A DNA stretch of 61,722 bases from Methanolinea sp. (GTDB taxonomy: Archaea > Halobacteriota > Methanomicrobia > Methanomicrobiales > Methanospirillaceae). The DNA lies in NCBI GenBank assembly GCA_018262855.1, contig JADFDO010000013.1, forward strand, positions 1 to 61,722, read 5' to 3'. Shown piece after piece: positions 1 through 59,990 of the stretch. Within the stretch, counting starts at the first letter, position 1, and every line of letters starts with the position of its first letter. Made by a program: the position numbers and the translations under genes. The notes under the pieces are model-generated. The model was not told the DNA's origin. It made no database searches and saw only the letters and a program-made list of their open reading frames with translations.

Positions 1-194
1 TGTATACGAATGTGTCCTGGGAGCCGACGAGCTTTGCAGGTGCGATCAGCCATGACGGCATGACACTGACGATCGTCGAGAAGGGAGGGGGATACAGCTA
101 CGGCACACTTATCGCTCAGGATAAGATCGATCTCGTGTATGCCGATACTCGCGAACCATACGAAGTCGCGATTGATATGCTGAAGAAGGATTGA
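1..194 (+). CDS. C-terminal fragment of an unrecognised protein
   Basis: The reading frame is open from the first base of the window to a TGA at 192-194, so this is the 3' end of a gene that starts upstream. The visible 63 residues or so end in a Lys-Lys-Asp tail. They contain alternating hydrophobic and polar stretches and a Gly-Gly-Gly-Tyr turn, consistent with a small beta-rich domain. The codon at 12 is a GTG, but nothing supports it as the real start. I do not recognise the family. Confidence 0.6.
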   Translation, partial: YTNVSWEPTSFAGAISHDGMTLTIVEKGGGYSYGTLIAQDKIDLVYADTREPYEVAIDMLKKD

Positions 195-443
195 AGCACA
201 ATTTTTTTTATTTTTTCCTCGGATTATTTCCCAGGCATTTTTAGAACATATTAGAATCCCGGGAGCAATTACAGAAATTGAACGTGATCGGGCCAGTCAC
301 CTCGGTCATGTTCCAGTATTAATAAGGGATTTTGGACAATCTAGCCACCAAATATTTGTTCGATGGCGTGAATAATCGTGGTGTTTGATGTTGGTTTCCT
401 GATTCTTTTGTGAATTTCAAATGATATTTTGGTTCCAAAGGGC

Positions 444-451
444 TATATAAA
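444..451 (+). promoter_or_regulatory. TATA box of the candidate RNA gene
   Basis: TATATAAA, preceded by the purine-rich tract CCAAAGGG that could act as a BRE. It lies about 25 bases before the GC-rich block that begins near 470, the usual archaeal spacing to a transcription start. No protein-coding gene follows on this strand. Confidence 0.6.
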
Positions 452-467
452 TCGAATTTGAATCGCC

Positions 468-630
468 GATGCGCTCCATCTCATCTCGCCTACCAGAATC
501 ATTCAGCAATTACTGAAGAAATGGAGGTGACCGCAGGTCGCCCCGGGTCGAGGGCGGTAGCCCCGCGGTATTTTCGGGGACGGCGGGGTCAATCACATAT
601 AAGATGTGAGATCCGTGACAAGGATTTTTT
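468..630 (+). ncRNA. Candidate structured non-coding RNA
   Basis: A GC-rich block sits in an AT-rich intergenic region, between a TATA box (444-451) and T-runs at 625-630 and 637-642. Several paired elements can be read by eye. CTCCAT (474-479) pairs with ATGGAG (521-526), enclosing TTCAG/CTGAA (502-506/513-517). GTGACCGC (527-534) can pair with GCGG (583-586) plus TCAC (593-596) across a six-base bulge. Inside that lie CGCCC/GGGCG (539-543/552-556) and CCCCG/CGGGG (561-565/575-579). TCACAT/ATGTGA (593-598/604-609) is an alternative 3' hairpin, and ATCC/GGAT (611-614/622-625) followed by six T looks like a terminator. It does not resemble SRP RNA, RNase P RNA or a C/D box guide. An H/ACA-type or novel RNA is possible. 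Ends are approximate. Confidence 0.5.
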
Positions 631-811
631 ACTTTATTTTTTATCAGGGTTTTTCATCACTCGTCGTCCTAATTTTTGAGTTATGTTGGTGGTAATAATG
701 ATACTATACCTATGATAAAAAATGCTGGCAATTCTTCTTCGCCCTGTATTTACAATGAGGCATCCGGTCTATCTATTTTGTTGAGAATCAAAAAACGGAC
801 ATGGAAAAAAA

Positions 812-1180
812 TTAATGGAGTGCCAGCTCGATTCCGACCCTCAGGTCATCGTCCCCAAATGGTTTTAAGATGAACCCGTCAGGATAGGTTGTCTTTGCCC
901 GATCGATAATCTCACCCTGGGAATAGCCGGTGACAAAGACAACCGATGCCTTTGAGATCTTACGTATCCTTCTCGCAGTTTCAATACCGTCAAGGGTCCC
1001 GGGAAGCCCGATATCGAGGAGAACGAGTGAAGGTTCTTCGTTCTGGACGAGATCGAGGGCATCGGGTCCATTTGCGGCCTTCCCGCACACCTCGTACCCG
1101 AGTTTCTTCACGCGCCATTCAAGAAGGCTTGCAATAACATCATCATCTTCGACAATCAGGATCCGGGCGTTCGAAGTCAT
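812..1180 (-). CDS. Stand-alone response regulator receiver protein
   Basis: A 122-residue protein consisting of a single CheY-like receiver domain. The acidic cluster is E11-D12-D13, the phosphoacceptor is D56 in LVLLDIGLPG, the switch Thr is in the VVFVTG strand, and the conserved Lys is in FILKPFG. There is no output domain, so it probably relays phosphate within a phosphorelay or acts by protein contact. No kinase gene is adjacent; the nearest hybrid kinase is at 5222-7060. Its upstream region shares an AT-rich segment near 1190-1230 with the divergent gene at 1465. Confidence 0.93.
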   Translation of the reverse strand: MTSNARILIVEDDDVIASLLEWRVKKLGYEVCGKAANGPDALDLVQNEEPSLVLLDIGLPGTLDGIETARRIRKISKASVVFVTGYSQGEIIDRAKTTYPDGFILKPFGDDDLRVGIELALH

Positions 1181-59909: not shown

Positions 59910-59983
59910 GGGCTTGTAGCTTAGTTCGGAAGAGCGACGGACTCTTAATCCGTAGGTCAAGGGTTCAAATCCCTTCAGGCCCG
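59910..59983 (+). tRNA. tRNA-Lys (anticodon CTT)
   Basis: A 74-nt cloverleaf. The acceptor arm is GGGCTTG/CAGGCCC with one G-U, the D arm contains AGCTTAGTTCGGAAGAGC, the anticodon stem ACGGA/TCCGT encloses loop CTCTTAA (anticodon CTT, Lys), and the T arm is AAGGG-TTCAAAT-CCCTT. No intron and no encoded CCA. T7 at 59991-59997 is a likely terminator. Confidence 0.97.
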
Positions 59984-59990
59984 CTCCCCA

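Follow-up and report, generated by a model that had tools for sequence, protein, structure and literature searches.

An IS1595-type MITE in Methanolinea with a structured core common to two MITE families

Short mobile repeats whose transcripts can fold are well known in prokaryotes, according to the available portions of two articles (PMC10969869, PMC3733652). Specifically, MITEs derived from insertion sequences (IS) are described in the accessible part of a review as short elements with inverted repeats and AT-rich intergenic targets, having flank duplications that decay and transcripts that are predicted to fold (PMC10969869). The same part reports that mRNAs containing Correia elements are cleaved by RNase III and that ERIC sequences have effects at gene 3′ ends. 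REP palindromes, as presented in the available sections of PMC3733652, are short, intergenic, GC-rich, and found in many copies. The terms IS1595 and "nested" are absent from the MITE review (PMC10969869), and the element reported below is undescribed in the accessible text of the open literature on IS1595 MITEs in archaea, on repeats of Methanoregula and Methanolinea, on structured archaeal MITEs, and on tRNA-fragment arrays (including PMC10969869, PMC3733652, and PMC3852290; subscription papers and ISfinder were outside this scope).

Here we analyzed a 61,722-nucleotide stretch of DNA from Methanolinea sp. (contig JADFDO010000013.1 of assembly GCA_018262855.1), hereafter the window, in which an apparent orphan RNA gene proved to belong to a family of mobile elements. 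The family has a testable oddity, in that preservation is better at the center of the element than at the ends needed for recognition by the transposase, and this center is common to two MITE families that differ in their ends. The interpretation in which we place good confidence is that of an IS1595-type MITE with a fold-constrained core that is common to two MITE families and is probably passive in host-gene transcripts.

A MITE at 326-711 and its partner insertion sequence

An earlier note, made from the letters of the sequence, had described positions 444-642 as a TATA-driven structured RNA gene. The sequence features that it named are present, namely a TATATAA at 444-450, a foldable GC-rich stretch at about 460-590 (GC of 0.59 at 501-600, and only 0.33-0.36 in the windows 351-450, 601-700, 651-750, and 701-800), and T6 runs at 625-630 and 637-642, 3′ of the GC-rich stretch; the idea of a distinct gene driven from its own promoter was not confirmed. 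What had been overlooked is that these features lie inside a longer repeat (326-711), of which they form the middle. The longest listed frame crossing this element encodes 73 aa, the closest plus-strand frame upstream of the feature stops at 194, and the downstream gene at 812-1180, a response regulator as judged by reading its sequence, is on the opposite (minus) strand.

Searching the same genome with 430-660 gave 44 listed matches, 31 of which had E<1e-5, and homology among the copies reached far past 444 and 642, to the inverted ends GGGTATAGTGACAATCTAGCCACC and their mirror. Among roughly 40 stretches of the genome that were scanned under a shared-end rule, 18 elements had these ends, including the window copy (386 bp), copies elsewhere with lengths of 295-396 bp, and an IS of 855 bp. 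The window copy has IS1595-type ends and lies at 326-711 in plus orientation, its left terminal inverted repeat (326-349, plus strand) being partly decayed and fitting the family end at 19/24 positions and its right terminal inverted repeat (688-711, minus strand) at 21/24. A consensus-end search of the genome found 24 places, versus one for the reversed control; the left end of the window copy is too decayed for it to figure among those 24. The 7-mer flanks of the 18 elements were identical at 87 of 126 positions, which none of 20,000 permutations equaled, and the 8-mer flanks of the same elements gave a permutation value of 0.00025. The flanks of the window copy are alike at just 5/7 positions, a weak target-site duplication in this copy.

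The partner IS (G000:C25:133733-134585, in the same genome) has ends as in the MITE and encodes a 262-aa protein that matched DDE_Tnp_IS1595 with an E value of 2e-35. It is flanked by seven identical bases, AAAATTA, the eighth base being different; flank duplications of the IS1595 family are 8 bp. Taken as a set, the elements have terminal inverted repeats, many copies, a partner with the same ends, and a target-site duplication at the level of the set, and the window copy has no transposase coding. Because the inverted repeats are common to the window copy, 16 other such elements, and the transposase-coding IS, the window feature is a MITE, that is, a non-autonomous mobile element, and one of dozens of copies of the core. 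The window MITE fits the IS1595-type transposase encoded in the same genome, and we infer that a transposase of this type transposes the MITE in trans and would have moved the copy into 326-711. The transposase-coding IS is without the core, and hence the core is dispensable for IS movement.

A left end at 19/24 and flanks at 5/7 give the window copy the look of an old, partly decayed insertion. Four genomes of the same genus (G050, G078, G044, and G061) have a syntenic response-regulator region, and no match to window positions 1-816 was present in their syntenic flanks, which covered 1135, 1500, 365, and 1500 bases, respectively. Since these four syntenic genomes are without the element, the insertion is either lineage-specific or was lost in those four genomes.

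These observations bear on a rival view, in which the TATA box drives a dedicated gene for a non-coding RNA and the remaining copies are pseudogenes. The TATATAA just 5′ of the core, the T-runs 3′ of it in the window copy, and the conserved core structure (see below) would agree with such a gene, but the TATA-like sequence at 444-450 (plus strand) is not conserved elsewhere. When the 40 bases upstream of 27 copies were compared with YTTAWAWA, the best match averaged 6.15 of 8 versus 6.19 in shuffles, and T-runs of at least six within 60 bases downstream followed only 10 of the 27 copies. The TATA box and terminator T-runs are therefore not features of the family, and the TATA is a chance trait of the window copy. 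Moreover, the element is missing from the syntenic place in the four relatives, no copy could be distinguished as an ancestral gene outside the repeat, and nothing in our analyses of the copies pointed to an RNA gene acting in trans. We regard a dedicated RNA gene as very improbable, and the earlier proposal of one does not survive a TATA private to one copy of a multicopy MITE that is absent from the locus in four relatives.

Comparison with Rfam 15 at the gathering score retrieved no family for the core in the window, with tRNA only elsewhere; under lax limits, positions 400-700 gave a single chance match (E of 0.81), and a scan of eight other related loci returned only tRNAs. The reading of the feature as lying outside Rfam thus holds. 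The H/ACA-type guide that had been suggested is rejected, as no Rfam guide-RNA family was found at threshold and just 2 of 26 copies from the same genome, and 8 of 74 overall, had an ACA where one would be expected on the 3′ side. The sole RNA gene that Rfam and ARAGORN found in the window was a tRNA-Lys (CTT) at 59910-59984.

The core and its conservation

The core is a conserved module of 140 nt at 458-597 on the plus strand. It matched our covariance model, R1, with 155.4 bits, a score to be read with the window copy itself being among the 26 copies from the same genome that were used to build the model. The predicted arrangement would be nested, with the two hairpins and a variable domain enclosed by an outer GC stem. 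The 5′ arm of the outer stem (463-470, plus strand) pairs with the 3′ arm (579-586, plus strand), with seven of eight pairs formed in the window copy and A469-A580 broken. Within it, the variable domain (472-525, plus strand) is of several sequence types among the copies and has no single predicted fold in common, single-sequence folds of the copies likewise showing no agreement there. Hairpin 1 (526-542, plus strand; GGTGACC-GCA-GGTCGCC) shows compensating changes across genera, and hairpin 2 (552-563, plus strand; GGGC-GGTA-GCCC) has longer forms in relatives, such as CGAAGGG/CCCTTCG.

By itself, the window sequence gives only a mild folding signal. Positions 467-632 (166 nt) on the plus strand folded at −57.7 kcal/mol (z of −1.84), with 4 of 200 shuffles equal or better, and the minus strand was close (z of −1.48). 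The single-sequence scores being mild, we take the structure as real because of the comparative evidence. Across 74 copies from several genera (those with E up to 1e-5 that were retrieved, a subset of the known copies), 93.8% of cells were paired and two-sided changes were found in 11 of the 19 modeled pairs, counts that lean upward as the alignment was fitted to the model. The covariation score was 0.266 versus 0.167 in shuffled alignments, with none of 500 reaching it, and slid controls had a maximum of 0.085. All three modeled helices showed two-sided changes among these copies. Types of hairpin 1 taken straight from the sequences pointed the same way and included GGTGACC/GGTCACC, GGCAGCC/TGCTGCC, and GGCCACC/GGTGGCC, which serve as examples only because the automatic choice took the best-pairing register and was wrong for some rows. 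RNAalifold run on the 26 copies from the same genome alone returned a covariation term of 0.01; the strong covariation depends on the relatives and on the model-fitted alignment. The earlier description of a structured feature with no protein product is borne out, the structure by covariation in the 74 copies, and the loss of stems without compensation among relatives, which the note had named as refuting it, was not what we found, since the core stems were retained with compensating changes.

The core is also better kept than the MITE ends. Among the 18 copies flanked left and right by family A sequence (19 before L064, which has a truncated core, was dropped), mean pairwise identity was 87% in the outer 5′ arm and 86% across the stretch running from hairpin 1 through the 3′ arm. 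The variable domain had 63%, the MITE flanks had 59-60%, and the 20-base bins at the inverted repeats had identities of 0.64 and 0.69. The covariation, together with a core identity that is high relative to the rest of the element, argues for a core kept by selection on folding.

Carriers, strand, and possible role of the core

Matches to R1 were present in 17 of 100 genomes from the host's taxonomic family, representing 6 of 17 genera. The genome under study had at least 32, this being the number scored, and two genomes of another genus had 30 and 27. Of 294 genomes sampled across the phylum, 5 had an R1 match, only one of which was outside the family. The pattern of hairpin 1 with a four-base loop occurred in 26 of the 100 family genomes; it misses the three-base-loop copies of the genome under study and was excluded from the counts. 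Viral contigs searched for exact matches had none.

Typing by flanks was performed for 38 places in the same genome, 29 of which had the full core and nine only a short hairpin. Twenty-three had family A flanks on both sides, six had family B flanks on both sides, one (L047) had family A on the left and family B on the right, and eight were untyped on one or both sides. Family B has ends of approximately CTCnTCGCTGTTTTGTGTGGGnAG, found at seven places in the genome and at none in the reversed control; a look for its transposase found none, the search in this genome being by end pattern. The same core is thus common to two MITE families with different ends, and it may have spread between them. 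Variants of the core of about 93-104 nt, with the outer stem and variable domain and without hairpins 1 and 2, were seen at four loci (L208, L201, L206, and L207) in genomes G030 and G010, from another genus. At a further locus (L220 245-480, G050:C2), the left side reads as a seemingly inverted right arm of family B and the right side as a family A arm, which suggests arm swapping at the palindrome.

Mixed elements of this kind raise the possibility that the core is a palindrome at the DNA level, a hotspot of recombination or strand switching that swaps MITE arms, so that the similarity would come from exchange and DNA hairpins, not from RNA. The occurrence of short (hairpin-only), ~103-nt, and 140-nt forms would agree with this, as would the two-family L047 and the apparently inverted arm in G050. 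However, identity in the variable domain inside the core is scarcely above that of the flanks (63% vs 59-60%), where exchange of the whole region predicts otherwise; because this domain sits between two conserved parts, whole-region exchange is a poor explanation. The lean of wobble pairs toward one strand also speaks against a DNA palindrome, which we consider rather unlikely.

That lean was seen as an excess of wobble pairs over A-C mismatches on the plus strand, at 32:11 (p of 0.002) when each 80% cluster was represented by a single copy and two wobble-rich pairs were excluded, and at 19:7 (p of 0.03) in a MAFFT alignment (A4) that was not structure-fitted, with one wobble-rich pair excluded. 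Under stricter clustering, the ratios were 17:10 (p of 0.25) and 13:7 (p of 0.26), neither of which is significant. The MITE flanks had no excess of C>T over G>A (14% vs 17% on the left and 17% vs 18% on the right). The wobble excess weakly points to a plus-strand RNA and is a lead, not proof.

Gene context was assigned with gene calls from a crude longest-frame rule. In the genome under study (27 copies), 12 sites were convergent (13 with the window row corrected by hand), one was divergent, and at co-directional sites nine copies read with the genes and four against. Among 27 loci of relatives, 10 were convergent, five co-directional with the genes and three against, five divergent, and four unresolved. 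Copies in the genome under study likely avoid promoter regions, while a preferred reading direction relative to genes is suggestive only, at 14 of 21 (p of 0.19, not significant).

The strand and context data concern a further reading, in which the core is a functional RNA domain on mobile elements that folds in the plus-strand transcript, is a target for binding or cleavage by some factor of the host, and persists because of the protection it gives to the element or the host. It is compatible with MITE identity and differs only on the role of the core. The two-sided changes in all three helices, the wobble ratios, the flanks without a matching C>T excess, and the co-directional counts in both genome sets favor it, but the wobble excess is lost under stricter clustering, the orientation bias is not significant, and neither a promoter nor a partner gene is conserved. 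We hold such a domain to be a tentative possibility.

Returning to the MITE with a core that is probably passive, we propose that the core would be transcribed only within the transcript of another gene, typically past gene 3′ ends, where it would fold into a stable structure with several branches that dampens or tolerates read-through. Such a passive working mode in read-through transcripts seems most likely, as a guess from position, and any action of the core would presumably be in cis, in the transcripts of neighboring genes. A bolder conjecture, which we think doubtful, is that a compact domain selected at the RNA level, acting in cis, was carried by two MITE families as their cargo and so spread through this family's methanogens, with a related hairpin pair in tandem arrays after alanine tRNA genes. 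If true, this would be an archaeal structured RNA module living on mobile elements and acting in cis where it lands. If the core works as RNA, it would provide natural insertions across the genome for testing archaeal 3′-end processing and read-through.

Arrays linked to tRNA genes were observed in several genomes. In the genome under study, two tRNA-Ala genes (L107 2160-2814; G000:C28:19159-19813, minus strand) are each followed by a repeat unit in which a pair of hairpins resembling hairpins 1 and 2 precedes a copy of the last 26-31 bases of that tRNA itself, and the second gene carries two such units in tandem. Similar arrays follow tRNA-Ala in G008, G050, G044, G056, G037, and G053, and are weaker in G013 and G030; G043 has the two tRNAs and no array. 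The sole R1 match outside the family (L210 260-460, in G101, from another family of the order) is likewise a tRNA-linked array and not a MITE, with the tRNA 3′ end repeated and a hairpin pair between copies.

Comparison with described elements

Like REP palindromes, as far as the available sections on these go (PMC3733652), the core is GC-rich, intergenic, and multicopy. The many intergenic copies of short GC-rich hairpins could be read as REP-like palindromes that depend on an IS200/IS605-type (Y1) transposase for their movement. However, unlike REP/RAYT systems, the elements here have inverted repeats and a flank duplication, and Y1_Tnp was found in none of the 25 family genomes searched; the 8 positive genomes of 41 were all in other families. 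With Y1 absent from the genome under study and the other 24 family genomes searched, we reject a REP/RAYT identity, which is next to inconceivable on these data.

The Correia/NEMIS and ERIC elements are, as here, MITEs with foldable sequence, the folding in our case being predicted from sequence. Both fold largely via their inverted repeats. Unlike them, the present structure is an internal module, and one known from sequence alone.

Set against the IS-derived MITEs in the accessible part of the review (PMC10969869), the present element is likewise short, with inverted repeats and a flank duplication. It is unlike them in having a GC-rich nested core whose conservation exceeds that of the inverted repeats, a core that is present in two MITE families and has compensating changes across genera. 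For a GC-rich nested module of this kind, better conserved than the ends and carried by two MITE families, we found no earlier description in the accessible open literature, subscription papers and ISfinder being outside the scope. Without recognition of the MITE, annotators would report dozens of false RNA genes. With respect to the IS1595 family (ISXO2-like), the relationship is that of an element and its partner: the IS has DDE_Tnp_IS1595 and the same ends as the MITE, and it codes for the transposase and is without the core, whereas the window copy is the reverse.
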